Shown here: positions 2,252 to 47,387 of the stretch, piece by piece
Position numbering within the stretch: position 1 is the stretch's first letter
Layout of the letters: each line of letters starts with the position of its first letter
IMG/VR virus record: IMGVR_UViG_3300028835_000144
Span: 1-47,387 of that record
DNA: 47,387 nucleotides
Reading direction: 5' to 3' (one strand)
From: a virus
Made by a program: the position numbers and the translations under genes
Notes under the pieces: generated by a model
Database searches by the model: none
Told to the model about the DNA's origin: nothing
What the model saw: only the letters and a program-made list of their open reading frames with translations

Positions 2252-3352
2252 ATGAAACAGCACCAGACTAGGCTTAGTAGTCAAGATATTAAGCCTAAAC
2301 ATAAGCCTACACATAACGTAGTATACTGCAAGCGTAGCGGAGTTAGATTTGAGATTATAGATAACTTTGGCTTGCATTATCTTACTGATTCTAATACCGT
2401 ACATCCTATATTCTTAGATAAGACTAGTTTAAGAGCTTTGCTTAAATTAGAATATGCTAAGGCTAGGAAAACACCAGAGCGTCTATTTGATGCAGACTGG
2501 CAAGATATCAGCTTAGGAAAAGAACAAGAGTATCAATATAAAGCTGAGGACCAGATACTATCTAAGTCTTTTATAGCTGGCGTAGTATTAGCTTGGCTTG
2601 CAGAGTTAGATTTAGTAGTCTGTAAAGAATTGAATGGTCGTAAGATGCATGAGCTTAATCTAGCTTTATGCAAGCATAAGCCTAGAGCTAACCTTATCTG
2701 GATGGCTAGGCGACTCCTAGTATTCCCTGCTACTGGCGCATTGCGTATTAATCTTGATACTGTCTATTCAGAATATAAAGGCTGGCAACATGAGACTAAG
2801 CAATGGTCTAGTGCTATCAGTTCTTATATTGAAGCAATGCTAGAAGATGAAGAAGAAAGATTACCTAAGCTTAAATCCCACAAGCGTACTAGTATAGCAG
2901 TCTATGATTCTCATCTTCCACCTAAGACTAATAGATTAAAGAACATAGATAAACCTCTTAATGGTAAAAGAGTCAATAGTGTATTAGGCTCTGCTATTAA
3001 GATACTAGGTACGCTTAAAAAAGCTAATGTGATAGATAAGCGTAAGCAGTCACAGATTCATACAGCTATAATGACCTGGCCTGAGCTTTCAGATAATGGT
3101 CTAGAAAGATTAGGTGACAGACTGCAAGAGCTTAGCGATGAGACTAGCCTATCATCTGATGAGCAGCAGATTCTATTTAAGGTAGGATTAGCTTTCAGTA
3201 CAGGTGAAATTAAGATGGTAGGTAATGCAGCATTATATACCCTAGGAGAGACTTTCCTAGGAGAAGTAGTAGAAAAATATCAGCCCGAACAGGAACTTAG
3301 CCTAGTCGAAAGATTAAAAGCTAAGGTTAAAGAACATGAATCTAACAGATAA
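2252..3352 (+). CDS. Hypothetical protein (366 aa), first gene of the rightward operon
   Basis: Predicted 366-residue, Lys-rich soluble protein. I do not recognise the fold; no Walker or nuclease motif is evident. It is the promoter-proximal gene of the replication operon, so it is probably expressed first. Its C-terminus ends in a charged helix containing LVERLKAK (about residues 351-358), a motif that recurs at the N-terminus of the next gene's product and in other proteins of this phage. The last 17 bases overlap the helicase start, implying translational coupling. Possible roles are a DNA-binding or host-interaction protein, but that is a guess from position and charge. Confidence 0.75.
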   Translation: MKQHQTRLSSQDIKPKHKPTHNVVYCKRSGVRFEIIDNFGLHYLTDSNTVHPIFLDKTSLRALLKLEYAKARKTPERLFDADWQDISLGKEQEYQYKAEDQILSKSFIAGVVLAWLAELDLVVCKELNGRKMHELNLALCKHKPRANLIWMARRLLVFPATGALRINLDTVYSEYKGWQHETKQWSSAISSYIEAMLEDEEERLPKLKSHKRTSIAVYDSHLPPKTNRLKNIDKPLNGKRVNSVLGSAIKILGTLKKANVIDKRKQSQIHTAIMTWPELSDNGLERLGDRLQELSDETSLSSDEQQILFKVGLAFSTGEIKMVGNAALYTLGETFLGEVVEKYQPEQELSLVERLKAKVKEHESNR

Positions 3353-5534: not shown

Positions 5535-5785
5535 AAGTAGAACAGCTTGTTAGACCAGGACATCCAGAGGATGAAACAGAATATCACTTTACTTTGGATA
5601 ATCATCAGCTTAGGATATTACATGCAATCTTACTGTTTTCTATGGAAGAAGAGAGTAAAGGAACTAGAAAGATACAGATTAATCCTACTCTACCAGCGGT
5701 GGAATGTTTACAGGATATAGGGGATATAGTAGAAAGTAATACTGATAACTACTTCAAAGCTTTAGACAGAGGACCAGAGCATTGA
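5531..5785 (+). CDS. Hypothetical protein (84 aa)
   Basis: Predicted 84-residue acidic, soluble protein of unknown family. Its ATG overlaps the helicase stop codon by the ATGA arrangement and its own stop overlaps the next start, so it is translationally coupled on both sides. No motif beyond a hydrophobic helix around residues 27-37 can be seen. It opens a run of about fifteen tiny genes between the helicase and the nuclease, typical of phage early genes that modify host functions. Confidence 0.65.
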   Translation: MKVEQLVRPGHPEDETEYHFTLDNHQLRILHAILLFSMEEESKGTRKIQINPTLPAVECLQDIGDIVESNTDNYFKALDRGPEH

Positions 5786-6048
5786 GCAAGAAGTTTAACC
5801 CTGATTTAATAGACTTTGAATATGACCTTATGCCTAATGAAAGCATGGAATGGCACACATTAGAGCCTGAACAGAACAAGGATATTAACGACACATTAAA
5901 GCAATCGTTTAGAGATAACTATCCTATGGCTATAAGATTCTATAAGATACTTACAAAAGGAGACAGTGCTAAATACCATCAAGGACATATGATAAGACTA
6001 AACAGAGATTATCTTAATCGTATATTAGAAACCGGAGTATTAAAATGA
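5782..6048 (+). CDS. Hypothetical protein (88 aa), TTG start
   Basis: The frame is closed upstream and the most plausible start is TTG at 5782, overlapping the previous stop, with GAGG about 9 bases upstream; the next in-frame ATG would remove 16 residues. The product is soluble and acidic in its first half, and I do not recognise it. It overlaps the next start by 4 bases. The unusual start codon probably lowers expression relative to neighbours, with coupling doing much of the work. Confidence 0.6.
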   Translation: MSKKFNPDLIDFEYDLMPNESMEWHTLEPEQNKDINDTLKQSFRDNYPMAIRFYKILTKGDSAKYHQGHMIRLNRDYLNRILETGVLK

Positions 6049-6545
6049 CAGCAGCAAAGAAACCTACAACTAAGCGTAAGGTATCTAAGAAGAAAGCAGG
6101 AACAGCACGAGTTAAAATGACTATTTCAGTACCAGGTTATCTAAAGGAACAGATGGATAGTGTTACAGAGGATGTTAACTGGTCAGCAGAAGCCTGTCAT
6201 GGCTTTAGGATGAAGCTAGGAGAATTAGGCTATCCAGAACTATTAGGCCCAAAGAAAAGAAAGACTGGACCGTTAGTAGAACGTAAAGTTAAAGCTAGGG
6301 AACGCAAGCATAAACATGGAGTAGAACGTAGAGATATAACTAAGTCAGCTATTAAGGTATTAGCTGCTGGTATGCGAACAGTCTTTGATATTAATAAATC
6401 TGGATTGTATGCATTAAGAGTAATGAACAGTAAACGTGGCGTACCTGCATTTGTAGCACAGCAGGAAGCTAATGATATAGTAGAAGAGATATTATATCAG
6501 TATGACCGTCTAGTAAAGATTCTAAATGTCAATGTCGGAAAATAA
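6045..6545 (+). CDS. Ribbon-helix-helix-type DNA-binding protein
   Basis: 166 residues. A very basic N-terminal 20 residues is followed by a segment (about 22-60) with a beta strand KMTISVP, a helix KEQMDSV and then NWSAEACHGF, the pattern of MetJ/Arc-type ribbon-helix-helix repressors, in which the strand pairs in a dimer and reads the major groove. The rest is basic and helical with no known domain. It overlaps the genes on both sides by 4 and 14 bases. It is the only obvious sequence-specific regulator in the window, so it is a candidate reader of the palindromic sites near the left end. RHH membership is inferred from pattern only. Confidence 0.6.
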   Translation: MTAAKKPTTKRKVSKKKAGTARVKMTISVPGYLKEQMDSVTEDVNWSAEACHGFRMKLGELGYPELLGPKKRKTGPLVERKVKARERKHKHGVERRDITKSAIKVLAAGMRTVFDINKSGLYALRVMNSKRGVPAFVAQQEANDIVEEILYQYDRLVKILNVNVGK

Positions 6546-6702
6546 AATAGAAGCTACGGTATATTGCCGACACTACTTCTGTAGATGCCTGAGAGCTTCA
6601 GAGTTACTAGCTATGGAGATGCTACAGGAAGCTATAGAAGTGCATTATAAACAGGTTAGATGTAGACAGAAAGATGACAGAAAAGACACAAGACCTGACT
6701 AA
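6532..6702 (+). CDS. Tiny Cys/His-rich protein (56 aa)
   Basis: A 57-codon frame with ATG at 6532, overlapping the preceding gene by 14 bases and the following one by 29. It fills what would otherwise be the only gap in this stretch. The product has YCRHYFCRC near residues 11-19 and a further Cys at 44, so four cysteines and two histidines in a basic 56-residue protein, compatible with one metal site. No family recognised. The supporting evidence is gap-filling, overlap and Cys pattern; an SD sequence is not obvious. Confidence 0.5.
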   Translation: MSENKIEATVYCRHYFCRCLRASELLAMEMLQEAIEVHYKQVRCRQKDDRKDTRPD

Positions 6703-6859
6703 GTATTATCTTGTTGAGGCTATTAAAGAAGCCGATAGACAAGTTAAAACTACTACAGGTAAAGGTATACTGGCTTGCTGGCCTCCTAGGGCACAGACCA
6801 CAGTATTACGTCGTATACTGATTAGGTTTATAGAAGGACCGAATCCTTATCATGAATGA
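6674..6859 (+). CDS. Hypothetical protein (61 aa)
   Basis: ATG at 6674 inside the end of the preceding small frame, preceded by AGA/GAAAG purine-rich sequence. The 61-residue product is basic and probably folded as helices around a central Gly/Pro-containing turn; nothing recognisable. It ends 8 bases inside the next gene. Conservation in relatives would be needed to separate it from a chance frame, but its fit in the overlapping chain supports it. Confidence 0.55.
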   Translation: MTEKTQDLTKYYLVEAIKEADRQVKTTTGKGILACWPPRAQTTVLRRILIRFIEGPNPYHE

Positions 6860-7070
6860 AACTATAGACCTTAATAATCCTCAGCCACCTAGACAGCATT
6901 ATCTTATTTATACTAATACTGCTTATTATATGGTATTAGCTACGGAAGATGAAGTATGGGAGCGGCAGCAAAAGTATATACAAGAGAAGATGAAAGAAGG
7001 AGCAAGGATAAATCAGATAAGCTTTGTATATATACCTGTCCGTTATACATTGTTAGCAGGGGTAAAGTAA
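6852..7070 (+). CDS. Hypothetical protein (72 aa)
   Basis: ATG at 6852 within the last codons of the preceding gene; stop TAA shares a base with the ATG of the next gene (TAATG). The product is a small soluble protein with several Tyr residues and alternating hydrophobic segments suggestive of beta strands (about residues 15-30 and 52-70). Its family is unknown to me. A second frame open from 6956 across its 3' half belongs to the upstream extension of the DUF1353 gene and is not expected to be translated from there. Confidence 0.6.
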   Translation: MNETIDLNNPQPPRQHYLIYTNTAYYMVLATEDEVWERQQKYIQEKMKEGARINQISFVYIPVRYTLLAGVK

Positions 7071-7474
7071 TGTATTATCGGAAATTAACTAACTATAAGT
7101 ATCAGACACAGCAGCATATGAGCTGCAAGTTTCCTAAAGATTTGTTTGTTAATCTACCGCAAGGTGGTAGAATATGTACAGAGCATGAGTATGTATGTCT
7201 AGAATTAGGCTTGCGTACTATGCAGATAAAGAAAGGATACTGCTGGGATGGGCCAAGTGGTCCTACTATTGACACAGATAACTTTATGCGTGGCAGTTTA
7301 TTCCATGATGGATGGTATCAGCTTATGCGTGAGTATGGTAGCTTTTACTTCCAGTGGCGTGATGATGCTGACCAGCTACTAAGACGTATGTGTATAGAAG
7401 ATGGTATGTCTAGCCTACGAGCACGCTGGGTATACTGGGGCGTTAAAACCTTTGGACGGAGAGCAGCATCATAA
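7070..7474 (+). CDS. DUF1353 family protein
   Basis: 134 residues from the ATG at 7070 (TAATG overlap with the previous stop, purine-rich AGCAGGGG upstream). The pattern GYCWDGPSGP followed by a short spacer, then RGSLFHDGWYQLMR and a distal DADQLLRRMC segment is the signature of DUF1353, a small family common in tailed phages. The conserved Trp-Asp-Gly-Pro-Ser-Gly loop and His-Asp pair look like a ligand or active site, but no activity is established to my knowledge. In other phages the family occurs in several genome locations. The frame extends upstream to 6956, but that would overlap most of the previous gene, so 7070 is preferred. Confidence 0.8.
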   Translation: MYYRKLTNYKYQTQQHMSCKFPKDLFVNLPQGGRICTEHEYVCLELGLRTMQIKKGYCWDGPSGPTIDTDNFMRGSLFHDGWYQLMREYGSFYFQWRDDADQLLRRMCIEDGMSSLRARWVYWGVKTFGRRAAS

Positions 7475-7644
7475 TGAATGCACAGGAATTAGTAGAGAAG
7501 CTAGTGAAACTTATCAGTGAAGGATACATTGACCCTCATTCTGATATCATACGCTTTGATGATGAAACGGATGAGTATTATAAGCTACGGGATATAACCT
7601 ATGTTAAGGATAGGATATATCTTGAGCTAGACTTGGACAGCTAA
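7474..7644 (+). CDS. Hypothetical acidic protein (56 aa)
   Basis: 57 codons, ATG at 7474 sharing its A with the stop of the DUF1353 gene; its TAA shares a base with the next ATG at 7644. The product is strongly acidic (14 Asp/Glu in the last 40 residues) with a helical N-terminus. Small acidic phage proteins of this kind are often DNA mimics or host-protein inhibitors, but nothing here proves that. Coupling on both sides and exact fit in the gap support it as real. Confidence 0.6.
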   Translation: MNAQELVEKLVKLISEGYIDPHSDIIRFDDETDEYYKLRDITYVKDRIYLELDLDS

Positions 7645-7769
7645 TGCATGAGCCTGACTATCTAAAGTATCTAGATGTATTTAAATATTTTAAACTTCCT
7701 ATGGTTCTAGGCTGTTTAATCTGGATACTAATAGCAGCATTATTTGTGATAGTGGTTTGGTTAATATGA
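7644..7769 (+). CDS. Tiny single-span membrane protein (41 aa)
   Basis: 42 codons from ATG 7644 (TAATG overlap) to TGA 7769, which overlaps the next ATG as ATGA. After a 20-residue polar N-terminus with three acidic and three Lys residues, residues about 20-41 form one hydrophobic span reaching the C-terminus. Phage proteins of this size and layout include small holin-like, superinfection-exclusion and host-membrane-targeting peptides. It is too far from other lysis-like genes to assign a lysis role. Confidence 0.55.
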   Translation: MHEPDYLKYLDVFKYFKLPMVLGCLIWILIAALFVIVVWLI

Positions 7770-8263
7770 GATTATATACTTTAGCTCATGCTACATTCTT
7801 TGAAGCATGTATAGCTGGTCATCCAAGAGCATTCTTAAACTGGTTAGCTGAACAGATACCAGAACCAGAACCTATGAAGAAAGAATCTCTTGAATGGCTA
7901 ATGCTACGCTCTAAAGCAATGCCAGAAGTTCTGCCTGATTATTGTTATGGATGTAAGATACGCTTAGGTGAAATCCCTGGCGGCAATATCAGGCTAGTAT
8001 GTCCTAACTGTGTCAAGGAAGATAAGCCAGAAGCTGACAGTGAAATGAATTGGTTTCTAGATATGCAGATTATACTGCTAGATATGAATCCTCATGTTTA
8101 TTTTCCTGAGCTGCTAGACTATCTCTTAGCAGTACACGCATTATGGATAGCTACGGAGAAGCATAAGTTAGGCGAGATTACCTGGAAGAACCAGGAGTCT
8201 AAGCCTGCAATCAATTTAATTGATAAACTAAAGGCTCAAAGCTATGCAGCAAAGCGAAATTGA
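7766..8263 (+). CDS. Hypothetical zinc-ribbon-like protein
   Basis: 165 residues from ATG 7766 (4-base ATGA overlap with the membrane protein). Two CxxC knuckles, CYGCK and CPNC, about 20 residues apart near residues 64-90, form a plausible four-cysteine zinc ribbon; the rest is helical. The C-terminus carries LIDKLKAQ, the same motif that starts the helicase and ends the 366-residue protein. No family identified. It overlaps the following gene by 20 bases. The zinc ribbon and the recurring C-terminal tag together suggest a DNA-associated or complex-forming replication accessory protein; that is inference. Confidence 0.65.
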   Translation: MRLYTLAHATFFEACIAGHPRAFLNWLAEQIPEPEPMKKESLEWLMLRSKAMPEVLPDYCYGCKIRLGEIPGGNIRLVCPNCVKEDKPEADSEMNWFLDMQIILLDMNPHVYFPELLDYLLAVHALWIATEKHKLGEITWKNQESKPAINLIDKLKAQSYAAKRN

Positions 8264-8567
8264 AGAGTATAGCTTGAAAGACTTGTGGAATTTCCTGGTT
8301 GAAAAGGAAGATATAACTATCACAGTGGATATACACAAGGTAGATTATATCAGGAAAGGATTAGCTAAGATAAAGCACAGAGAAAAGGAAAAGATAGGAG
8401 AATTTGCAGATGATTCTGTTAAGTTCAATACCTATCCTATCCCACAGACCTCTGAAGAGAAGGAAGATGGTAAGATCCGTCTTAGGCTAGTGCTTAGAAC
8501 ACAGGAAGGATTCAATGTCCATAAGATTCAAGTTAATGATGTTGACGACTTGTCTGATACTGGTTAG
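8244..8567 (+). CDS. Hypothetical protein (107 aa)
   Basis: ATG 8244 lies in the end of the preceding gene with AAAGG about 8 bases upstream. The product is soluble, highly charged and rich in Lys/Glu, with a predicted helical first half and a strand-rich second half; no membrane segment or known motif. It ends inside the next gene, overlapping it by 53 bases, which is more than most pairs here. I can assign no role. Confidence 0.65.
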   Translation: MQQSEIEEYSLKDLWNFLVEKEDITITVDIHKVDYIRKGLAKIKHREKEKIGEFADDSVKFNTYPIPQTSEEKEDGKIRLRLVLRTQEGFNVHKIQVNDVDDLSDTG

Positions 8568-8841
8568 TCCAGTACAGGCTACATTATGTCCAGATGGTAG
8601 TCCAGTAACAGGGACTAGAGACTGTCACGGTAGATTATATCAGCCTCATAATCCTCGTGTCTGGCTACCTAACTATGCATATCCTGCTAGTCCAGCAGCA
8701 GTATGTACTAGAAACGGAGACTGTTATGCCAGGAATAGAAGACCTTATATTATTCGACAGCCACACGGGTACAAACCAGGAATTCGACCCAGAGTCTTTC
8801 AAAGAAGGTATTTCAAACCTCAAGGACAAATTAGATACTGA
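8515..8841 (+). CDS. Secreted Cys-containing protein
   Basis: 108 residues. The N-terminus is a classical signal peptide: KLMM, a hydrophobic core of about 12 residues, then a VQA cleavage site near residue 22. The mature part is small, basic, Pro- and Tyr-rich and has four cysteines (near residues 24, 37, 64 and 70), compatible with two disulfides in the periplasm. ATG 8515 follows a good GGAAGG. There is no lipobox and no second membrane span. The last 116 bases are shared out of frame with the next gene. A phage protein exported from the infected cell could act in exclusion or lysis; none is proven. Confidence 0.65.
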   Translation: MSIRFKLMMLTTCLILVSPVQATLCPDGSPVTGTRDCHGRLYQPHNPRVWLPNYAYPASPAAVCTRNGDCYARNRRPYIIRQPHGYKPGIRPRVFQRRYFKPQGQIRY

Positions 8842-9082
8842 AGCACCACATGAGGCGGTTAAGTCTATCTTACTTAGGCTTAAAGAATCGCTGCATCAGT
8901 ATCCTCAGATAGTCCATGAGCTATTACCGGAAGATATAGGACAGATGACTAGAGCTATTAAACATATTTCTGATATAGTTCTTATTAAAGATAAGACTAA
9001 ACAGAATAAGAAGGTAGCTCGTAAGCAAATGACTAGAGAACAGTTAGTAGACGCTATACATAATCCACCGGAGGATTTCTAA
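8726..9082 (+). CDS. Hypothetical acidic helical protein (118 aa)
   Basis: The frame is open from 8657, but ATG 8726 is preceded by GGAGA at 5 bases and is the better start. It still overlaps the secreted-protein gene by 116 bases in another frame. The 118-residue product is acidic at the N-terminus, basic near 95-105, and mostly helical; no domain recognised. Its stop overlaps the next start as TAATG. The long dual-coding stretch is unusual for this genome. Confidence 0.65.
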   Translation: MPGIEDLILFDSHTGTNQEFDPESFKEGISNLKDKLDTEAPHEAVKSILLRLKESLHQYPQIVHELLPEDIGQMTRAIKHISDIVLIKDKTKQNKKVARKQMTREQLVDAIHNPPEDF

Positions 9083-9399
9083 TGGCTATGCATGACCCTA
9101 GGGAAAATGAAATAGATCCTGAAACTATGGAAGAGATAAAATTTGATAGTAAAGAAGAACTAGAAGAAATGTGTAAGGATTATGCAAAGACTTTTAAGGA
9201 ACGATATGCTATACAATCTGGAGCAGGTGGAACCTGGACTGTTATCCGTAGAGTAAATAAAAGCTGTCCTGATTATCCAGAAGAGGATACACCTTTTGAA
9301 GAATTTTATAGCAGCGTCTGCATTTGTGCCACGCCTACTATGGCTGTTGCAATAGCAGAAGCTTTAGAGAAAGAGCATCCAAGCGGAGATATAGCATGA
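9082..9399 (+). CDS. Hypothetical acidic protein (105 aa)
   Basis: ATG 9082 shares its first base with the previous stop and has GGAGG about 10 bases upstream. The product is very acidic over residues 1-40, followed by a stretch with TWTVIRRV and a C-terminal helix ending in EALEKEHP. It is soluble, with three cysteines; the family is not recognised. The TWTVIRR and ATPTMAVAIAEALE segments look like a small beta-beta-alpha unit of the type used in phage accessory proteins. No functional claim. Confidence 0.65.
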   Translation: MAMHDPRENEIDPETMEEIKFDSKEELEEMCKDYAKTFKERYAIQSGAGGTWTVIRRVNKSCPDYPEEDTPFEEFYSSVCICATPTMAVAIAEALEKEHPSGDIA

Positions 9400-9545
9400 G
9401 CAGAAAAGATTATGTTTGTTGTATAGTTTTGTTAGCAGTAGTTGAAATACTTGGCGACTATAAGGTAACAGATAAGTTACATGAGATACGTTTAGCTTTA
9501 AAGGAAGCGTTACAGGAAAGTAAAGAAGATGCATCTGAGGGATAA
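9396..9545 (+). CDS. Hypothetical protein (49 aa)
   Basis: ATG 9396 overlaps the previous stop (ATGA), with GGAG nine bases upstream. An in-frame extension back to 9324 exists but would sit wholly inside the previous gene. The 49-residue product has a hydrophobic helix with two Cys (about residues 6-18) followed by an amphipathic charged helix. The hydrophobic part is short for a membrane span. It overlaps the nuclease gene by 17 bases. Confidence 0.6.
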   Translation: MSRKDYVCCIVLLAVVEILGDYKVTDKLHEIRLALKEALQESKEDASEG

Positions 9546-10497
9546 ACTAGGACTGAATGTACAGCAAGAACCGGGGCCAGGAGAACGCCCACGGTTTAGG
9601 CTATCTCATTCTGCCTTAGATATATTTAATAGATGCGAGCGTAAGTATCAGCTTATATGTTGGATACCACAGGAACCTGAGTTAGCTATAGAGAATGTAG
9701 ACTTATCCTTTGGTAAAGGAGTAGGCGCAGGCTTTCAAAAGTATATGGAGACAGGAGATTTAGATGAAGCTCTGTTTACTACCTTGCTAGCTTATCATCC
9801 TTACATAGAGCATCCTGATACTAAACAGAATAGGAAATATCTAGAGCGTGCCTTCTTTGCAGTAGAAGCTTTAGCTAATAAGTGGGATACGTTACCGTAT
9901 GAACTGATGTACTTTAATGGAAAGCCAGCAGTTGAGCTAACTTTTAAAGTAATCTTAAATGACTATGGCGATTATTATTGTGGTCATATGGATGCTGCTG
10001 TCTGGAATCAAGATAAGAATCTTCCAGGTGTAGTAGAAGTTAAGACTACAGGAATGAACCGTGACGATCTTACGCCTCTGTATAAATATAGTCCTCAAGC
10101 ATTAGGTTATTCTATGATACTAGATGTTATCAAAGATGATTTGCCTAATAACTTCGAGACAGTGTATACGGTAGCGCATCTTATAAGAGGAAACGAATGG
10201 CCTGATGCCAAGGTTATTCCTTTTAATAAGACTAAACTTGATAGATTAAACTGGCTCATGGCACTCATGGGCGACCTTAATACTATGATAAAGTGCTGGG
10301 AAAATAATTTCTGGCCTCAAAGATTTCAAGAATGTTTAGCATATAATAGAGCGTGTCAGTATATAGATACTTGTAATTTAGCTAGTTGGAATGATGCACA
10401 AGAGACAGTACCAGAAGAGTTTGGTTTAGATTATAATGCCGGTAAAGAATGGCAGTTTGAATTTAACCTGGATGAAGTATATGAAAAGGCAACCTAA
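9529..10497 (+). CDS. PD-(D/E)XK nuclease, RecB/Cas4-like, probable Fe-S protein
   Basis: 322 residues. An N-terminal SHSALDIFNRCERKY resembles the start of RecB/Cas4-family nucleases. The catalytic core is GHMD (Asp 155), then VVEVKT (Glu 170, Lys 172) and QALGY (Gln 190, Tyr 194), i.e. D-ExK-QxxxY. Cys 36 plus C-terminal Cys 269, 276 and 282 could bind a 4Fe-4S cluster, as in Cas4, AddB and related exonucleases. It directly precedes the Sak4-like gene (stop/start overlap), so it probably resects ends for annealing-type recombination. The spacing of the three C-terminal cysteines is not the textbook CxxC-x5-C, so cluster binding is inferred. Confidence 0.85.
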   Translation: MHLRDKLGLNVQQEPGPGERPRFRLSHSALDIFNRCERKYQLICWIPQEPELAIENVDLSFGKGVGAGFQKYMETGDLDEALFTTLLAYHPYIEHPDTKQNRKYLERAFFAVEALANKWDTLPYELMYFNGKPAVELTFKVILNDYGDYYCGHMDAAVWNQDKNLPGVVEVKTTGMNRDDLTPLYKYSPQALGYSMILDVIKDDLPNNFETVYTVAHLIRGNEWPDAKVIPFNKTKLDRLNWLMALMGDLNTMIKCWENNFWPQRFQECLAYNRACQYIDTCNLASWNDAQETVPEEFGLDYNAGKEWQFEFNLDEVYEKAT

Positions 10498-11414
10498 TGA
10501 ACCTAGCAGAGATTAAAGCGCGGAGAGAAGCTGAACAGACCCGAATGCGTGGCAGCACTGTACTAGTCTGGGGTCCACCTAGAACTGGTAAGACACGCTG
10601 GGTATCTTCTATAGCTAAAGCTCCACAAATTAATAAAATTTTTTTCTGGGATACAGAGAATGGCTTTGAAAGTATTATACACGCGACTAATCCAGACGGC
10701 ACCCCTTATTTATCTGAAGCGGAGCTTACTAAGATTAACCTTATACCTATCCTCGATACTCCTAGTAGGCCACTGGCAGCAGAGACTTTGCTCAAAGCAT
10801 TCTCCAGTACCAGCAGGACGTTATACATTAACTCAGCTGATGGTAAAGTCAGAGCCAAAGGACAAGAGGATGATAATGACGTGTGTCTTAGTCCAGAAGA
10901 TTGGGGACCAGATACCGCCCACGTAATAGATACTATAGGACAGCTAGGAATTAGTGTGCTTAATTTAGCCAAGCTAGAGATGGGTGAAGTTAAAGACCAG
11001 CGTAGATGGTATCAGTTTGCTACACAGCATTTAAATAATTTCTTTACAATGATACAAGCTAGTAATGCGTTTATTATATGTGTGACTCATGTATTAACGG
11101 ATGAAGTAGTATTAGCCCGTGATAAATCGGGCAATCCAACAAATACCCGTGACGACTATTATCCTATGTGTATGAGTAAGAACTATTCCATGAATGTAAG
11201 CAAATATTTCGGTTCAGTTATATATAAGTTCATTGATGGATTCTCTTTCGCGCACGTTAGTACACCTACTAAGAAGCGTGGAATACAGGCAGGTACGCGA
11301 ACGGGAGTAGATATATCTAACCTCCCTGATGCTACACTACCTGAGTTGTTAAAGCTAGTAGAGTTAGCACAAGCTAAACCAGAAGTTAATCCGCTATTGA
11401 AAGGTAAAAGTTAA
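10497..11414 (+). CDS. Sak4-like RecA-fold single-strand annealing ATPase
   Basis: 305 residues. Walker A GPPRTGKT at 26-33, FWDTENG about residue 53, a Walker B-like HVIDTIGQLG near residue 141, and a strand IICVTHV near residue 200: a single RecA-type ATPase core without the rest of RecA. Phage proteins of this layout (Sak4 group) promote annealing and recombination together with the phage SSB. Here an SSB-like gene follows directly with a one-base overlap, and a PD-(D/E)XK nuclease precedes, reproducing the usual nuclease/annealase/SSB set. The family call rests on P-loop pattern, size and context. Confidence 0.8.
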   Translation: MNLAEIKARREAEQTRMRGSTVLVWGPPRTGKTRWVSSIAKAPQINKIFFWDTENGFESIIHATNPDGTPYLSEAELTKINLIPILDTPSRPLAAETLLKAFSSTSRTLYINSADGKVRAKGQEDDNDVCLSPEDWGPDTAHVIDTIGQLGISVLNLAKLEMGEVKDQRRWYQFATQHLNNFFTMIQASNAFIICVTHVLTDEVVLARDKSGNPTNTRDDYYPMCMSKNYSMNVSKYFGSVIYKFIDGFSFAHVSTPTKKRGIQAGTRTGVDISNLPDATLPELLKLVELAQAKPEVNPLLKGKS

Positions 11415-11908
11415 TGCAAGACCAAACTCAAGATACTTTGCTAGATATGGACGACCTTGATTCTCTTACCCTTGATGGGATAGAAGAAGCACCGGAGTTC
11501 ATGACCCCTCCCAGTGGAAGATATAACCTTGGCATTAATAAAGCTGAGGTATTTAAAAGAGAATCTGAGGATGGGGATACGCAAGCTATCCGCCTTATTT
11601 ACTTCACCAGAGAGACTATTGAATTGAATAGTCAGGATGAGGACAAGGTTCCTGATGGTTCCTTATTCTCTGAAACCTTTGGTATCCCTGACGGGTTGAA
11701 GTATTTTAAAACTCGTATGATAAAGGTGCTTGGCGACAAAGTAGATGGCATTAAGATTAAAGATATGCTAGATGCTTTGCCTCAAGTATTCGGGGAGAAT
11801 GGAGATAAGATGATAGCAGCTACGCTAAAGAAAACTGTCTCTAAGAAAGATGGTAACGAGTATGAGAATGTTCGTTTCCAAAAGACTGAGGTAGTTGACA
11901 GAGGCTAG
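11414..11908 (+). CDS. SSB-like single-stranded DNA-binding protein (DUF669-type)
   Basis: 164 residues with an acidic N-terminus (about residues 1-28), then PPSGRYNLGINKAEVF and alternating strands with IRLIYF and FSETFGIP, the arrangement seen in phage SSB-like proteins next to Sak4 genes. It is translated right after the annealase and should coat single-stranded DNA for replication and recombination. Unlike many SSBs the acidic tail is at the N-terminus. The stop codon (11906-11908) is followed at once by the structured RNA element at 11912. Assignment is by context and pattern, so moderate. Confidence 0.6.
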   Translation: MQDQTQDTLLDMDDLDSLTLDGIEEAPEFMTPPSGRYNLGINKAEVFKRESEDGDTQAIRLIYFTRETIELNSQDEDKVPDGSLFSETFGIPDGLKYFKTRMIKVLGDKVDGIKIKDMLDALPQVFGENGDKMIAATLKKTVSKKDGNEYENVRFQKTEVVDRG

Positions 11909-11911
11909 CGT

Positions 11912-11983
11912 ATTGGTCAGAGCTTACCAATCCTAACAGACTTCGGTGCTGTTGTCCTGTTAGGGAAAGCTCGGGTGGGTGGG
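11912..11983 (+). ncRNA. Candidate structured RNA: two hairpins, pseudoknot and G-quadruplex motif
   Basis: Hairpin 1: ATTGGT (11912-11917) with ACCAAT (11926-11931), loop 11918-11925. Hairpin 2: CCTAACAG (11932-11939) with CTGTTAGG (11957-11964), whose loop starts with ACTTCGGT, a C(UUCG)G tetraloop mini-stem. Loop 1 bases GAGCTT (11920-11925) are complementary to AAGCTC (11967-11972), giving a 6-bp pseudoknot that encloses hairpin 2, with the stems nearly adjacent. GGG tracts at 11963, 11973, 11977 and 11981 with loops of 7, 1 and 1 form a canonical four-tract quadruplex motif that competes with the last stem pairs and the pseudoknot. It lies in the only sizeable gap of a 16-kb operon. No known riboswitch was recognised. 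Confidence 0.6.
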
Positions 11984-12049
11984 CAGTTTATCTTTCGGTT
12001 CCCTTCCGAGGATATTCGGGTTTTATTAAAAAAAATTTTGGAGAGTCTA

Positions 12050-12271
12050 ATGCCTAAACGTAAAGTATATTGTAGCGTAGATGGTTGCTTCAGTGAGCGT
12101 AAGTATGTAGAGAGTGGGTTATGTGCAGCTTGTTATGCAGGTATGTACTATTGGAAAGATAAGACTCCTACACAGGTAATCAATAGAGTTAAGCAGCTTG
12201 CTAGATTAAGTAGCAGGATGGATTCTCTTATGCCTACAGTTCGCCACATTAGGAGGCGACGGAGAGCCTAA
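12050..12271 (+). CDS. Small basic zinc-finger-like protein
   Basis: 73 residues from ATG 12050, preceded by GGAG at six bases. The frame is open back to GTG 11975, but that would start inside the G-rich element and has no ribosome site. The sequence CSVDGC followed by CAACY gives four cysteines (C-x4-C, then C-x2-C) near residues 7-29, and the C-terminus is a run of arginines. Probably a nucleic-acid-binding zinc protein. It is the first gene after the structured RNA, so its translation is the most likely target of that element. It overlaps the next gene by one base. Confidence 0.65.
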   Translation: MPKRKVYCSVDGCFSERKYVESGLCAACYAGMYYWKDKTPTQVINRVKQLARLSSRMDSLMPTVRHIRRRRRA

Positions 12272-12675
12272 TGAAAGATAAACCACAGGGTAGTAATATT
12301 ATCCTTGACCTTAGTATAAAGAATGCTCTTGAGAAGAGAGCACAGATGAATCCTAAACAGGATGTTATTCTGCCCTGGTGGTTTAAACGCCACACTCATA
12401 TAGAATATGGTAAAGAAGCTATGGAAGCCTTCGCCTTTATAATGCGCTGGCTTCAGGATAATGCACCAGAAGAAGCTGAGAATGTATACGATGAATCAGA
12501 CATGACACAGAATATCATTATCAATCCTATGTATGTAATAGAGGATGATATACTTCAAGCTTTTGTTGATGCAGGTTTTCGTGTGATGGAAGAGAAAGAT
12601 ATTCCAGGACAAGAAAAGACTGACATCTATGACAGACTAAAGCACGGGAGTAACTTCAGTGACAAATGGCACTAA
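12271..12675 (+). CDS. Hypothetical protein (134 aa)
   Basis: ATG 12271 overlaps the previous stop. The 134-residue soluble product has VILPWWFKRH near residue 33 and an acidic middle, with a C-terminus containing DRLKHGS. No family recognised. It lies between a zinc protein and a MazG-like enzyme just before DNA polymerase, so a link to nucleotide metabolism or replication is plausible from position only. It overlaps the next gene by 17 bases. Confidence 0.65.
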   Translation: MKDKPQGSNIILDLSIKNALEKRAQMNPKQDVILPWWFKRHTHIEYGKEAMEAFAFIMRWLQDNAPEEAENVYDESDMTQNIIINPMYVIEDDILQAFVDAGFRVMEEKDIPGQEKTDIYDRLKHGSNFSDKWH

Positions 12676-13159
12676 GTGGAACCCGCTAGCTATGCAAGCA
12701 GAATTCTGTAAGGCTATGGATATTCCTTTGGCTAATAGACCAGAGGTTAAACAGGAAGATTATCTTTATCTTGGTCGTGCTCTTATCATGGAAGAGTTTA
12801 AGGAAGTAATGATAGAGTATGATAGGATAGAAGAGACTACCTTACACTGGATAGGCGAGACTGAAAGAGAACAGTTACGCCACCAGTTCTTACAGAATCT
12901 ATGTGCAGAGCTAGCAGATTTAATATATGTTATATGTCAGGCTGCTAACATGCATGGCCTACCGTTAATCCAGTTCTATGATGCTATCCATGCTGCTAAC
13001 ATGCAGAAGATAGATCCAGCAACAGGCAAAGTAAATAGAAGAGAAGATGGTAAAGTGTTAAAGCCTGTTGGTTGGAAAGCTCCACCTCTTACGGAGATAT
13101 ATGATAAAGCTCTCCGTGGATTCTATGATGACACAGCAACCGAACCGGCTGGTGAGTAG
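12659..13159 (+). CDS. MazG-like nucleoside triphosphate pyrophosphohydrolase
   Basis: 166 residues, GTG start at 12659 with GGGAG eight bases upstream. A helical all-alpha core carries MEEFKEVMIEY and, further on, CAELADLIYVI, the acidic ExxE/ExxD pairs that bind magnesium in MazG/PRA-PH enzymes, followed by FYDAIHAANMQK and a REDGKVLKP segment common in phage versions. These enzymes hydrolyse NTP or dNTP to the monophosphate and pyrophosphate, or cleave alarmone. Next to DNA polymerase it probably adjusts nucleotide pools during infection. Confidence 0.75.
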   Translation: MTNGTKWNPLAMQAEFCKAMDIPLANRPEVKQEDYLYLGRALIMEEFKEVMIEYDRIEETTLHWIGETEREQLRHQFLQNLCAELADLIYVICQAANMHGLPLIQFYDAIHAANMQKIDPATGKVNRREDGKVLKPVGWKAPPLTEIYDKALRGFYDDTATEPAGE

Positions 13160-13466
13160 ATTGCAGAAGCAGACATATAAGCAGCAAGATTTATACTCCA
13201 TAGCGGACCTAGAGCTGGAGCTAGCCCAGAGATTCTGCCCTAGTTGTCCTATTGCAAAGTGGAGATATATGGCTGCTCTTAGAGGCCACACCATGTACAC
13301 AGGATATAAGTGGGTAGGTAAAGAGAAAACCTCCTACTGTATATGGATGTACCCGCCAGAGACTAAGGTTTCTGAGAGAGCAGATAAACACATTGTAGCT
13401 GAGGCTCCTTCATTAGATGACCTGTGTAATTGCAGGTTTAACAGAGCTGGATTTAAAGTTAGATGA
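13125..13466 (+). CDS. Hypothetical Cys-containing protein (113 aa)
   Basis: The start is uncertain: ATG 13125 or 13128 have GGA upstream, and ATG 13101 has GGAG at only four bases. I chose 13125. The product has FCPSCP and, near the C-terminus, CNCRF, so four cysteines that could bind one metal ion, with a Trp/Tyr-rich centre. It overlaps the MazG-like gene at its start and the polymerase ATG at its end (ATGA), so it is coupled to both. No family recognised; a small zinc protein linked to replication is the most one can say. Confidence 0.6.
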   Translation: MMTQQPNRLVSRLQKQTYKQQDLYSIADLELELAQRFCPSCPIAKWRYMAALRGHTMYTGYKWVGKEKTSYCIWMYPPETKVSERADKHIVAEAPSLDDLCNCRFNRAGFKVR

Positions 13467-15691
13467 AACTTCTATTCAACTGTACTAAAGAAGATAAAGC
13501 ACATAAAGGAGAGCTGGCTCATCTATTAGGAGAGAGCAACTCAGCCATTATTTCGAGTAAAGAATATGACCAATCAGCATTACTCTCAACTGCGGCAATG
13601 CCTCAAGTTGGGGCCGAAGCCATACTGTGTAACAATCCTAGCACGCTCAAGAACCTCGTACCTGGTGCAGCTAATCCATCCGACTGGCGCGGTTCTATAC
13701 TTCGATATAGCATACCTGTTCTATGTATATCCCCCCTATCTCATTTACATTCTGTTGCACATGGCGAGTGGTTACTTAAACAAGATCTTAGCAAGCTATC
13801 CTGTATTAACAAGCCAGCGCATAAGCTGGATTATACCGTCATTGAGTCTGCAAAGAGTCTTGAAGCGCATTTTAATTTACTTAGACAGCAAGCCTTATTC
13901 CTTGTTATCGACATTGAAACCAGCAAGAAGAACTTAATAACTTGTATAGGCTTTACCTTCTTTGATAACAATGGATTCCATAATTTTATTGTACCCTTTA
14001 GGATAGGCTATTGGAGAGATGAATATGAATTTGAAAGGGTCGTATCGTTCCTACGCGAATATCTTAGTACCACAGATATGCCTAAGTGTTTCCATAACGG
14101 CGCTTATGATAACTACTATTTACTCAGGTATGGAATTGCAGTACGTAACTATATCCTCGATACTGAGTATCTGTGGTATTGCTGGTTTACTGAGCTTCCT
14201 AAATCTCTTGCTTTTGTTAGTTCAGTTCTACTCCATGATACATATTATTGGAAAGAGGAATCGGAAGGTGATGAATTTAATCTATGGAAATACTGCGCTA
14301 AGGACTGCTGGTATACAGCGCGAATCCTCTTGGCAATTATCAGACATATCCCTGAATGGGCATTAGTTAATTACTCAAAGAAATTTCCAGAAGTCTTTTC
14401 TGCTATTAATGTAAAGTTCTTTGGCTTCCTGGTGGACGAGGATATTCATCGTGGTTTATTATCAGAAGCTGAAGCAACTGTGGATAAGGTTAAGCGTGAC
14501 CTTACTACTATGGCAGACGAAGAGGCGTTTAATCCGGGCTCGTGGCAACAGGTTAGTAAACTGCTCTACGATATCCTTGGAGCTAGTAAACCTTCTAGAA
14601 GAAGAGGAAAGAGTAAGGCAGGGACAGACGAAACAACTCTTAAAAAGATATCTCTCCAGCACCCACTTATCGAACGGTTCGTGGATAATATACTCTTATA
14701 CAGACAAGAAGTAAAAGCTATAGGCACTTATTATAAGGCACCTTTATATCATGACCGTCTTAAATTTGCACAGAACATTGATGGAACTGATACTGGTAGG
14801 CATTCTTCTAACAAGCTACCTATGTACATTCCTAATCCTAGTGGTCTTAAAAAAGATGAGGCTAACTACGGGACTAACTTACAGAACCAGCCGCCATACA
14901 TGAAGAAATGTCTGATGGCAGACCCAGGATTTAGGCTAGGAGAAGTAGATAAGAGTCAATCAGAAGCTAGGTGTACTGCTTATTTAAGCCAAGACCTAGA
15001 TCTTATTCGCGCACTGGAAGATGATGAGGATTTCTATTGTTATACTGCGTTCTTATTCTTTGGTGTTAAGATAGATAAGGACCATCCACTACGACAGTTG
15101 ACTAAGAAGATAATCCACGGTACTAACTATATGATGGGCGTCGATACTTTTATAGATGAAGTAGGTATCAAAGCTATAAGAGAAGCGATGGTATTGTTAG
15201 GAAAACAGCGTATGCCTATCAAAGAGTTCGTGGCTTATCTTCTTGGCCTCTATCACAAGGCATATAAACGTGTGCCTAAGTGGTGGGATTCTACTAAGCT
15301 TGATATAATTAAATGGCATAAAATAACTACTCCGGATGGATGGACCAGACTGTTCTTCGGAGATCCTAGGAAGGACCATAAAATTCTGCGTAATGCCGTA
15401 GCCCATCAGCCACAACATCTATCAGTAGCAGGTATTAATAAGTCCATGTGGGATTTACTACACCTACAGATGGATAGCAATGGCGATTATATAATGATGG
15501 CGCAAATACACGATAGTATAGTTTTTGAAGCTAAGGAAGAAAAGTTTGATTATTATATGGAACAGACTATGAATATTATGCAGAGTGTAGATGTTGTACA
15601 TGGTAGAACTATGGTTATTCCTTTAGAAGCTGAGCATGGTATACATTGGAAGCCTATGCAAGAATGGAGTTTACATGGTAGAGTGGTTTAA
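13463..15691 (+). CDS. polA: Family A DNA polymerase with 3'-5' exonuclease
   Basis: 742 residues, the size of phage polymerases lacking the 5' nuclease domain. Exonuclease motifs: DIET (Asp 150, Glu 152), HNGAYDNYY and YCAKDCWYT. Polymerase motifs: DTGRHSS, motif A EVDKSQSEARC (Asp 496), motif B RQLTKKIIHGTNY (Arg 544, Lys 548), motif C QIHDSIVFE (Asp 684). It is the replicative polymerase. Two positions depart from the textbook: His 552 where Escherichia coli Pol I has Phe 762, and Ser in place of the Glu of motif C HDE. Codon and CTAG use in the first third looks different from the neighbours. It starts on the previous stop and overlaps the next gene by 17 bases. Confidence 0.92.
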   Translation: MKLLFNCTKEDKAHKGELAHLLGESNSAIISSKEYDQSALLSTAAMPQVGAEAILCNNPSTLKNLVPGAANPSDWRGSILRYSIPVLCISPLSHLHSVAHGEWLLKQDLSKLSCINKPAHKLDYTVIESAKSLEAHFNLLRQQALFLVIDIETSKKNLITCIGFTFFDNNGFHNFIVPFRIGYWRDEYEFERVVSFLREYLSTTDMPKCFHNGAYDNYYLLRYGIAVRNYILDTEYLWYCWFTELPKSLAFVSSVLLHDTYYWKEESEGDEFNLWKYCAKDCWYTARILLAIIRHIPEWALVNYSKKFPEVFSAINVKFFGFLVDEDIHRGLLSEAEATVDKVKRDLTTMADEEAFNPGSWQQVSKLLYDILGASKPSRRRGKSKAGTDETTLKKISLQHPLIERFVDNILLYRQEVKAIGTYYKAPLYHDRLKFAQNIDGTDTGRHSSNKLPMYIPNPSGLKKDEANYGTNLQNQPPYMKKCLMADPGFRLGEVDKSQSEARCTAYLSQDLDLIRALEDDEDFYCYTAFLFFGVKIDKDHPLRQLTKKIIHGTNYMMGVDTFIDEVGIKAIREAMVLLGKQRMPIKEFVAYLLGLYHKAYKRVPKWWDSTKLDIIKWHKITTPDGWTRLFFGDPRKDHKILRNAVAHQPQHLSVAGINKSMWDLLHLQMDSNGDYIMMAQIHDSIVFEAKEEKFDYYMEQTMNIMQSVDVVHGRTMVIPLEAEHGIHWKPMQEWSLHGRVV

Positions 15692-15851
15692 TGAAGTCGT
15701 CTGGTACTGGATATTTGTACTAACCTTATTGTTCACACTAGGTAACTGGACTAAGATTAGTGGGCACCTGCTAATGTTGGGCCTAAGTGTTGCAGTATTC
15801 TTCGGGATAATTCTGCTGTTTGCAGGTGTACAACCGAGGGTTATAGGATGA
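15675..15851 (+). CDS. Two-span membrane protein, holin-like candidate
   Basis: 58 residues from ATG 15675, with GGAG five bases upstream; the longer frame from 15636 lies entirely in the polymerase gene. Two hydrophobic stretches (about residues 8-25 and 30-52) are separated by a short polar turn with a Lys, leaving little outside the membrane. Size and topology fit class II holins, which open the inner membrane for the lysin. The next genes are a 58-residue helical protein and a DUF5675 protein, so this may be a lysis cassette. Other small membrane proteins look similar, hence the moderate call. Confidence 0.55.
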   Translation: MVEWFNEVVWYWIFVLTLLFTLGNWTKISGHLLMLGLSVAVFFGIILLFAGVQPRVIG

Positions 15852-16024
15852 CGATCTTTCTAAAGATTAAACTAGCAATGAGAGCCTTAGCTATGGTTCC
15901 AGCAGTTTATAGAGCTGTAGAACCCCATGTTAAAGCAAGCGTAGCCATGCGTAGAGCAGCTGAAGTTATGAATAAAGCGGCTGACCTAGAAGAAGAACTG
16001 GAGAAAGAAGGTGAGAATAACTAG
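15848..16024 (+). CDS. Small amphipathic helical protein (58 aa)
   Basis: 59 codons from ATG 15848 (ATGA overlap) to TAG 16024, with AGG directly upstream. The product is Ala/Met/Glu-rich and almost entirely helical, with a mildly hydrophobic N-terminal half (residues 1-25) and a strongly acidic C-terminus (EEELEKEGE). The N-terminal half could associate with the membrane. It sits between the two-span membrane protein and DUF5675. It might be an antiholin or a scaffold-like peptide; there is no direct evidence. Confidence 0.55.
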   Translation: MTIFLKIKLAMRALAMVPAVYRAVEPHVKASVAMRRAAEVMNKAADLEEELEKEGENN

Positions 16025-16400
16025 AGTAGCTGATGGTCCTTATGGAACCTACGGTGTAATACATGATTTGGATGATGTACCATTTGCAGTTACACTAGAA
16101 AATCCTTGGAAGGATAACGAACCTTTCATCTCTTGTATTCCGAGTGGTCAGTATCAATGTAAACCTGTGCAATCTCCTAGTCATGGAGATACATGGGAAG
16201 TGCTCAATGTAACAGGACGCACACATATCCTATTCCACATAGGAAATACTGAAGCTAATACCAGAGGCTGTATTCTGTTAGGACAGCGGTATGGTAGATT
16301 AAACGGAGTACCAGCTATATTAAGTTCCACGCCAGCATTCAATGAGTTCAAAGATATGCTGCATGGAATTAATAGCTTAACGCTTACCATTGAGTGGTGA
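16011..16400 (+). CDS. DUF5675 protein, possible cell-wall enzyme
   Basis: 129 residues, GTG start at 16011 inside the preceding gene, with GAAAGAAG upstream. It has the DUF5675 pattern: an N-terminal strand pair, TLENPW near residue 29, IPSGQY near 43, and HIGN (His 76) followed by TRGCILLG (Cys 87). The His...Gly-Cys arrangement resembles the active site of YkuD-type L,D-transpeptidases (HG...GC), which act on peptidoglycan. The family has no proven role to my knowledge. Because no other endolysin is visible and a holin-like gene lies just upstream, it is the best candidate for the missing wall-acting lysis protein; that is inference. It overlaps the next gene by 7 bases. Confidence 0.65.
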   Translation: MRITRVADGPYGTYGVIHDLDDVPFAVTLENPWKDNEPFISCIPSGQYQCKPVQSPSHGDTWEVLNVTGRTHILFHIGNTEANTRGCILLGQRYGRLNGVPAILSSTPAFNEFKDMLHGINSLTLTIEW

Positions 16401-17644
16401 GTCAGGATTTCTTTGACCTCTATTTTTCTTATGTAGGAAAGACTGAGTGTCCTAGGATATTCCACAGGTGGACTGCTATCTCCTGTGTGGCGGCCTTATT
16501 AGGTCGTGATGTTAATTTACCGTTTGGACACAGTAACATATATCCTAACCTGTATGTTATACTGATGGGCCAGCCTGGAACACGCAAGTCAACAGCTATT
16601 AAGATAGGACAGAAGTTGATTACAAGTATAGGATACGATCATTTCTCTGCTGATAGGACAAGCAAAGAAGCTCTATGGTTAGATATGACCCAGGAGCAAG
16701 AGCGTAACTATGATGATGCAGACTTGGAGGACTTACGTCCTTATACTCCTACAGAGTTATATATAGTAGCGGATGAATTTAATGATTTCATGGGCATTAG
16801 AAATGAGGAGTTTCAGACTGCTCTCACAAAGATGTGGGATTGTCCGGGAGAGTATAAGACTCGTGCCAAGGCGAGCAGCAACGCTAGTATATACAAACCT
16901 ACTATTAACATCCTTGGCGGCAATACTCCTAGCGGGTTATCTAAAGGTTTCGGACCAGAGGCTATTAACGGTGGCTTCTTTAGTCGTATTATGTTTGTGC
17001 ATAGTGAACCTACTGACGTCCGTATTCCTTTTCCTGCTGTACCTAATCAAAGCACGGAGGATAATCTTAAACAGTCGATTAGAGATATAAGAGATTCTAC
17101 TACTGGTAAAATGAATGTCACCTCTGGCGCCCGTCACGCGCTGACCTCAATGTATACAGGGTTCCCAGGATTAGCAGATAATAGATTCCAATACTATGGG
17201 ACCAGGCGGCATACCAATCTCCTAAAGCTATGCATCATATATGCAACCATGCGTCACAGTATGGATATAGAAGAGGAAGATTGTATAGCAGCCAATACCC
17301 TGTTACATACAACTGAACTACAAATGCCACAAGCATTCGGAGAGTTTGGACTAGGAAAGAATGCAGAGGTATCCAATGTAGTAATGGAGCTGATAAAGAA
17401 ATCAGTTAAATCAGGCAAACCAATAACTGCACAGCAGATATGGAAGGTAGTACATAGAGATCTTAATGATATGAAGGATCTTAATACAATACTACGAGGC
17501 TTAATGGAAGCAGATAAGGTTAGTGTAGTTACTAAAGGAATGGCTAAAGGATTTCTTCCTCAGCAGATACACGATGTTAAGTGGGCTAATGGTCTTATAG
17601 ACTATATGTTCTTAACTCCAGAAGAGAGGATAGGTGACAAATGA
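16394..17644 (+). CDS. DUF3987-like P-loop primase/helicase
   Basis: 416 residues from GTG 16394 (or the adjacent GTG 16397). Near the N-terminus FHRWTAISCVAALLGRDV precedes a Walker A GQPGTRKST (59-67) and a Walker B-type IVADEF (Asp 127, Glu 128 region), then LGGNTPSGL, an order typical of DUF3987/primase-associated ATPases. The C-terminal 80 residues look like a winged-helix region. In phages with Pol A this protein usually acts as replicative helicase or primase-helicase loader. No separate zinc-ribbon primase was found, so priming may depend on this protein or the host. Confidence 0.7.
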   Translation: MVSQDFFDLYFSYVGKTECPRIFHRWTAISCVAALLGRDVNLPFGHSNIYPNLYVILMGQPGTRKSTAIKIGQKLITSIGYDHFSADRTSKEALWLDMTQEQERNYDDADLEDLRPYTPTELYIVADEFNDFMGIRNEEFQTALTKMWDCPGEYKTRAKASSNASIYKPTINILGGNTPSGLSKGFGPEAINGGFFSRIMFVHSEPTDVRIPFPAVPNQSTEDNLKQSIRDIRDSTTGKMNVTSGARHALTSMYTGFPGLADNRFQYYGTRRHTNLLKLCIIYATMRHSMDIEEEDCIAANTLLHTTELQMPQAFGEFGLGKNAEVSNVVMELIKKSVKSGKPITAQQIWKVVHRDLNDMKDLNTILRGLMEADKVSVVTKGMAKGFLPQQIHDVKWANGLIDYMFLTPEERIGDK

Positions 17645-17961
17645 AATGTGTAACAGGCTTATTGCTTACACTGTTACTTGGCACAGCTTTGGCGGCTGAT
17701 GTCACAATAGATGCGGATGGCGATCCTAATGCTACGAGCTATAGAATCTATAAGAGGGCAGTAGTAGATCCTGCTTGGATAGATTTTATAGATGTACCAG
17801 CATTCCCTGCTATATATCCTAATGTAAGTGATTCAGGAATAACTATGTTTAAAGCCTGTTCTATCAATGCTGTTGCTGTAGAGTTTTGCAGAGATGAAGC
17901 AGGCGCATGGTATGATGCAGATTCTATTCCACTTACAATGCAGGGAGTAAGGATTCCATGA
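17641..17961 (+). CDS. Secreted protein with fibronectin III-like fold
   Basis: 106 residues. Clear signal peptide: MK, a leucine-rich core, then ALA cleavage near residue 18-19. The mature part begins VTIDADGDPNATSYRIYKR and ends in strands around ITMFKACSINAVAVEF, the look of one fibronectin type III domain, with two Cys that could form a disulfide. It overlaps the DUF3987-like gene by 4 bases. A phage-encoded exported single-domain protein may modify the cell surface or block superinfection, but no role can be read from the sequence. Confidence 0.6.
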   Translation: MKCVTGLLLTLLLGTALAADVTIDADGDPNATSYRIYKRAVVDPAWIDFIDVPAFPAIYPNVSDSGITMFKACSINAVAVEFCRDEAGAWYDADSIPLTMQGVRIP

Positions 17962-18251
17962 ATAGGAGTGCTACCTGTACTATAACCTGTACCTTTAAAG
18001 GCCGAACAGCAAAGGCTATTAAGGTTCATGTTAAGAATGAAGGTAAGTTCTTTTGGCTACCTATATCTCAGATACCTAATATGTATTTATCAGGTGAGGA
18101 AGAATCAGGAGCTGAGACAAGCGTAGATCAAATGACACCAGAAGAGGAATACCTGGTTAGGATTCCCCTCTGGTTAGCCTGTAAGTTATTACAATGTGAT
18201 GATGTGGAGGAATTAAGAGACCTGGAACTAAGCTACTTAGAGATAGATTAA
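17958..18251 (+). CDS. Hypothetical protein (97 aa), last gene of the rightward operon
   Basis: ATG 17958 overlaps the previous stop, with GGAG upstream. The product begins with a strand-rich region containing AIKVHVKNEGKFFWLPISQI (about residues 19-38), the pattern of a small beta-domain found in phage proteins that pairs a basic strand with a Trp-Leu-Pro-x-Ser-Gln-Ile motif. An acidic C-terminal half follows. I know no function. It is followed by a hairpin at 18263-18278 and the convergent end of the virion operon. Confidence 0.65.
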   Translation: MNRSATCTITCTFKGRTAKAIKVHVKNEGKFFWLPISQIPNMYLSGEEESGAETSVDQMTPEEEYLVRIPLWLACKLLQCDDVEELRDLELSYLEID

Positions 18252-47027: not shown

Positions 47028-47127
47028 ATGTGCTATAGGCTAGTATTATATCCTGATATCGTATTATATATCTCAAATGTAATATTTTTTCCTGGCAGAC
47101 TATTGAAGAGCCGCGCCTGACACGCAC

Positions 47128-47186
47128 AAAAAAGGTTCCTACCCCCGCAGTCTAGCCTGGTTGACTAGCTGCGAGGATAGGAACCT
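47128..47186 (-). terminator. Tail copy of the left-module terminator
   Basis: Same two-stem hairpin and U6 tract as 80-138, shifted by 47,048 bases. One base differs, at the position equal to 125, in an internal loop. Confidence 0.85.
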
Positions 47187-47278
47187 GGTTAAGTATCAGA
47201 CTCCGCCTATCTATTCTATTCTTTTAGATGCGGTATCCTATGTATCTTAGTCTGTAACCTAGTGCTTAGCCTATTAGG

Positions 47279-47387
47279 TTACTTGCTACTCTGGATGAAA
47301 GCCTCCGCCATTCTGATTGCCTGCTTATACTCTCGCCTTGCCTTATTCATCAGACTGAAAGCCTGAGACTTGTTTACCTGTCCCTGG
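47279..47387 (-). CDS. Partial 3' end of the first left-end gene (terminal repeat)
   Basis: Identical to bases 231-339, the last 36 codons of the 231-530 gene, cut by the window end. It is not a separate gene but the second reading of the same region caused by circular closure. No change in coding sequence is seen between the copies. Confidence 0.85.
   Translation of the reverse strand, partial: QGQVNKSQAFSLMNKARREYKQAIRMAEAFIQSSK

Follow-up and report, generated by a model that had tools for sequence, protein, structure and literature searches.

A probable pseudoknotted RNA leading into a G-quadruplex motif, a candidate boundary element between the SSB-like and polymerase-side genes of a podovirus-like virus

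What occupies the one stretch of a viral replication operon that no gene appears to cover? We addressed this for IMGVR_UViG_3300028835_000144, analysed over its full 47,387 nt (hereafter the window), which is podovirus-like, with replication genes running rightward at 2252-18251 and an arm that runs leftward starting at 18282. Near-identical direct repeats at its ends (1-300 and 47049-47348, 97% identical) suggest that the window is a complete genome whose termini are defined and repeated. The gap at 11909-12049 measures 141 nt and is the sole stretch of more than 20 nt in the 2252-18251 operon without plausible ORF cover; other apparent gaps, 8568-8656 and 9400-9528, lie within other listed ORFs. 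The original prediction, which placed a compact RNA in the only sizeable gap of this operon, with SSB-like/Sak4 genes on one side and MazG/polymerase genes on the other, was therefore right about the location.

The gene upstream of the gap (11414-11908, + strand) ends with a UAG stop codon 3 nt before the RNA and matches phrog_13889 (E 1.2e-8). An AlphaFold2 model of its product, built from 23 sequences (pLDDT 89), had ssDNA-binding OB folds as top PDB matches (PrgE, SSBs; E 5e-3, TM about 0.4) and DUF669 and SSB-type proteins as viral matches, and this model points to an SSB-like OB-fold protein. Downstream, the window carries a gene for a small Cys-rich, zinc-finger-like protein (12050-12271, + strand; RBS GGAG at 12040-12043), followed by an unknown gene, MazG and the polymerase.

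The fold can be described as a three-stemmed H-type pseudoknot, composed of a first stem (P1), a pseudoknot helix and an embedded hairpin (P2), which leads into a G-tract, all on the + strand. The P1 strand ATTGGT (11912-11917) pairs with ACCAAT (11926-11931). Within the P1 loop, GAGCTT (11920-11925) forms the 5′ strand of pseudoknot stem 2, and its partner AAGCTC is located at 11967-11972. P2 (11932-11964), with an outer stem of 6 bp (CCTAAC/GTTAGG), is inserted in loop 3 of the pseudoknot and carries TGCTGTTG (11947-11954) in its apical part. Loop 1 consists of 2 nt (CA), and there are 0 nt between the two pseudoknot stems and 0 nt between P1 and P2. P2 and the pseudoknot 3′ strand are joined by 2 nt (GA), a short span for a helix of six base pairs unless the end of P2 opens. 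The two hairpins, the six-base complementarity enclosing the second of them, and the abutting stems with zero or two unpaired bases had all been part of the original prediction, and each was found as described. The element nevertheless extends past the end at 11972 given there, into a conserved G-tract ending at 11983 that had not been reported.

Could such an arrangement arise by chance? Strict 6+6 H-type knots, defined by two perfect 6-bp stems, a loop 1 with a length of 1-3 nt and 0-1 nt separating the stems, occurred 5 times on the + strand. Shuffled strands contained 2.15 on average, which corresponds to an expectation of about 0.006 for any one 141-nt gap. The minimum free energy of the element is ordinary (z -0.7). 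The earlier claim of a geometry designed rather than fortuitous can hardly be upheld from this single genome, knots being common in shuffles, and holds once a relative is compared.

This relative, IMGVR_UViG_3300009788_001138 (L012), was found by a polymerase-based search of viral contigs. Its polymerase and SSB-like protein are 65% and 58% identical, respectively, to those of the window; it lacks the small Cys-rich gene, and gene 12271 directly follows the pseudoknot RNA. Directly 3′ of its SSB-like stop codon lies AGTGGTCAGAGATTACCACTCCTGGC...GCTAGGGAAATCTCGGGTGGGTTGGG, and in both phages the RNA begins 3-4 nt after that codon. L012 keeps 18/18 pairs of the three helices, with three two-sided changes, one per helix: U-A to G-C in P1, C-G to A-U in the pseudoknot and A-U to G-C in the outer stem of P2, where a further pair changed from A-U to G-U. 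Compensatory changes, on which the proposed fold had been made to depend, are thus present in P1, P2 and the pseudoknot. As a control, the pairing partners on the 3′ side were shifted by 1-3 columns, which lowered the kept pairs to 28-50%. With the seven substitutions placed at random, all pairs were kept with P = 1.4e-4, and all pairs plus at least three double changes with P = 4.6e-5. The RNA core is identical at 41/48 positions, compared to 42-46% at third codon positions (Sak4, SSB, 12271, pol). As two members are known, covariation is limited to one pairwise comparison, window against L012, and shuffles of these two rows made by the covariation tool itself reached the observed counts in 61/500 cases.

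Because L012 keeps all pairs and core identity is far above that of third codon positions, the structure, including its pseudoknot, is very probably real as judged from these sequences. Conservation also reaches the unpaired bases, namely CA, GA, UGCUGUUG and the G-tracts; TGCTGTTG is likewise identical in L012. A C(UUCG)G mini-stem, previously regarded as part of the design, did not hold up, since L012 has UUACUG there, unlike the apical UGCUGUUG of P2, which is identical in both phages.

The gap itself is non-coding. In codon usage, its in-frame reading (11975) ranks under the 5th percentile of coding windows. The SSB-like gene of L012 ends in a tandem UAGUAG; there the frame is closed, and relative to the stop the knot occupies a different frame. 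Three-stemmed frameshift/readthrough pseudoknots share the topology and a stop codon just upstream, but the closed frame of L012 and the codon usage of the gap exclude, at the level of sequence comparison, readthrough or frameshifting as a conserved function. Other classes were also rejected: ARAGORN found no tRNA or tmRNA, and for a type III toxin-antitoxin RNA, characterized by tandem repeats before a toxin gene, no ToxI-like tandem pseudoknot repeat occurred at the element among the 20 repeat families listed, and the genes downstream are those for the small Cys-rich protein, an unknown protein, MazG and the polymerase.

The G-tract holds a G-quadruplex motif at 11963-11983 (+ strand), GGGAAAGCTCGGGTGGGTGGG, in which four GGG tracts are separated by AAAGCTC, T and T. 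It conforms to the canonical (G3+N1-7)x4 pattern, with loops of 1-7 nt; no other canonical motif occurs on either strand of the genome, the chance expectation being 0.005-0.08 per genome. L012 retains the four tracts, as GGGAAATCTCGGGTGGGTTGGG, with a third loop of TT instead of T. The motif overlaps the pseudoknot, whose 3′ strand sits in its seven-base first loop, and P2, which takes two Gs of the first tract; the pseudoknot may therefore be one of two competing folds, a predicted quadruplex being the other. ViennaRNA run with quadruplexes preferred the quadruplex folds to plain hairpins (-26.8 versus -23.4 kcal/mol in the window, -29.1 versus -27.2 in L012), the knot not being scorable. No C-rich long-range partner for the G-tract within about ±2.5 kb was consistent in both phages.

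Beyond the G-tract, a third hairpin, P3 (ATCTTTCGG/CCGAGGAT, 11990-12013), is predicted in the window (z -0.75); a strong hairpin of L012 (z -4.0) shares its position, not its sequence. A weak terminator-like hairpin with a T-rich tail (12005-12020, dG -5.6) also uses CCGAGGAT, so that it and P3 exclude each other. An attenuator based on this exchange was rejected, as it is not conserved in L012. Neither phage has the stable GC stem followed by a U-tract of an intrinsic terminator: the best candidate of the window is the 12005-12020 hairpin (-5.6 kcal/mol), and the L012 hairpin is without U-tract.

Searches for further members gave a restricted picture. No Rfam 15 family was matched at gathering score, in line with the earlier statement that no riboswitch or ribozyme consensus fits, and nothing among the Rfam 15 covariance models rose above chance even at relaxed E-values. 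Exact-pattern searches of viral and genome contigs returned L012 as the only further member; other pattern matches (viral contigs, bacterial genomes, a Shigella phage) were without P1 and judged to be chance, and L112 and L117 were coding where checked. A covariance model over 73 loci gave no further member at E < 0.05, and L012 alone matched among eight whole records scanned. Pattern, protein, nucleotide and covariance-model searches together thus yielded two members, the window and L012. The starting lead was CGGGTGGNTGGGCAG, common to the window and to phage PaP2 (upstream of pol), with only unrelated matches elsewhere. PaP2 (L005:4887-5000, upstream of pol) shows a long hairpin of 13 + 6 bp whose loop contains CTTCGGGTGGCTGGGCAGCTT, which is alike in 17/19 positions to window 11971-11989 (TCGGGTGGGTGGGCAGTTT) and the same or nearly so in all PaP2-like phages. 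This similarity beats 1500 shuffles, whereas that between L012 and PaP2 does not, and the fold around the PaP2 stretch, a long simple hairpin, differs from that of the window. The window and PaP2 stretches may share a common origin.

Covariation in all three helices thus supports a functional pseudoknotted RNA, and from the relatives we infer how it might work. These include PaP2 (Fredfastierviridae), Polaromonas phage Tiera and EBPR podovirus 3. Terminator-like hairpins were counted in non-redundant relatives: they occur after the SSB-like stop in 28/54 cases, compared to 3/62 after Sak4 and 2/53 after the exonuclease gene. The position 3′ of the SSB-like gene is thus a boundary that recurs, with SSB-like expression on one side and polymerase-side expression on the other. 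Fredfastierviridae-like podoviruses (PaP2 and Tiera among them) and relatives from IMG/VR place a simple GC hairpin with a U-tract directly after this stop codon, whereas the window and L012 carry the pseudoknot and G-tract at this site, a strong hairpin with U-tract being absent from both. About half of the relatives have no clear terminator after the SSB-like gene either.

Since relatives place terminators at the same site, the simplest reading is that the RNA performs this boundary task. Such a role is plausible, and we put at roughly 40% the probability that the RNA acts in cis as a boundary between SSB-like and downstream expression. Phage replication proteins are required in very different amounts from one transcript. 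The RNA would be a structured cis element of the polycistronic replication mRNA marking the 3′ boundary of the SSB-like cistron, and would do the job of the relatives' hairpin by another route: a fold hard to unwind could define or protect the 3′ end of the SSB-like mRNA and could lower the amount of message reaching the polymerase-side genes. Exonuclease block, polymerase pausing, ribosome block and protein binding are all candidate modes. The first G-tract is common to P2 and the quadruplex, so the element could also alternate between pseudoknot and quadruplex folds. Against a boundary role, the conserved unpaired bases resemble specific recognition more than a passive roadblock.

As these bases are strongly conserved, a protein operator or a riboswitch stays alive. 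The T4 gp32 operator consists of an mRNA pseudoknot followed by unstructured A/U-rich RNA that contains UUAAA repeats and extends to the RBS, and is bound by the phage SSB (PMC3014915; PMC535899). The present RNA could possibly work in a similar way: excess SSB-like protein would nucleate on the pseudoknot, spread over the A/U-rich leader and repress downstream translation. Like the T4/RB69 gene 32 operator, it is a phage mRNA pseudoknot beside a gene for an OB-fold SSB-like protein in a replication operon. An A/U-rich leader to the next RBS, with TTTTATTAAAAAAAATTTT between knot and RBS, is present in the window and only short in L012. However, the knot follows the SSB-like gene here and precedes it in T4, so that autorepression is not expected and the control would be feed-forward. 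Because of this reversed gene order, membership of the gene 32 type fails on position in the window and L012, neither of which has the knot in the leader of the SSB gene itself. The RNA is also about twice as large, contains an embedded hairpin and is followed by the G-quadruplex motif; P3 and the G-tract intervene, and the SSB-like protein is not a recognisable gp32 homologue. We therefore hold an SSB operator to be unlikely, if worth keeping in mind.

A ligand-sensing RNA for the downstream genes, with pseudoknot-quadruplex exchange or the P3/terminator-like alternative as output, seems slightly less probable. The preQ1-II (COG4708) and fluoride riboswitches are likewise H-type pseudoknots with an additional hairpin (PMC11262651); the unpaired bases here are near-invariant, and P3 and the terminator-like hairpin are mutually exclusive in the window. 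On the other hand, the RNA differs from these riboswitches in gene context and in having neither a sequence or covariance-model match nor a conserved expression platform: this output is not conserved, because L012 lacks the terminator alternative, and no linkage to metabolite-pathway genes was observed. Equally doubtful is a switch in which the interlocked pseudoknot and predicted G-quadruplex divide SSB-like from polymerase gene expression, possibly read by the SSB-like protein.

An RNA that modifies the transcription complex, either a put-like antiterminator or an attenuator, and acts on RNA polymerase at its exit from the SSB-like gene is a weaker candidate again. It would suit the compact, neighbouring hairpins and the long early operon, and the terminators of the relatives at this site make read-through control there plausible, but no strong terminator follows in the window or L012 and known put RNAs lie near promoters. 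The element could instead act as DNA, the + strand quadruplex serving as a replication, recombination or pausing site and the hairpins being secondary; this we consider improbable. A single canonical motif in 47 kb does lie beside the replication genes, and a similar G-rich stretch occurs upstream of the PaP2 polymerase gene. Nevertheless, this would leave the compensatory changes of all three helices unexplained, L012 and PaP2 are alike here no more than by chance, and in the first 250 nt beyond the SSB stop a canonical motif (loops of at most 12 nt) is missing from every other relative. Chance complementarity without function is very improbable despite the frequent knots in shuffles and the ordinary fold energy, and is already refuted insofar as L012, an independent relative with the same layout in which every core substitution preserves pairing, is genuinely diverged.

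The post-SSB-like site is a recurrent control point of this podovirus group, at which a conserved pseudoknot and quadruplex motif here replace the usual terminator-like hairpin. If the boundary reading is true, the RNA would be a second phage mRNA pseudoknot tied to an SSB gene, after T4 gene 32, and would offer a small testable case of pseudoknot/quadruplex exchange, with the window and L012 homologues as ready-made compensatory mutants.

Some minor observations concern the relatives. In PaP2 the SSB-like gene is duplicated in tandem (3422-3937 and 3981-4484), the copies being near-identical and the second unannotated, and a terminator hairpin with a T6 tail lies 3′ of the second copy. The next-nearest relatives show short hairpins after the SSB-like gene, GCACAGGGACGTGC (twice in L001, 4535-4553 and 4770-4789), GGAGCAAGGACGCTCC and GGGACAAGGATGTCCC; those of L001, L014 and L016 have A(A/G)GGA-type loops. 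Terminator-like hairpins of diverged relatives often have the loop CACAAG, with 12 in all compared to 0-6 for control hexamers; these are located at most 60 nt after the SSB-like stop in L021, L023, L029 and L031, and also occur in L030, L072 and L081.
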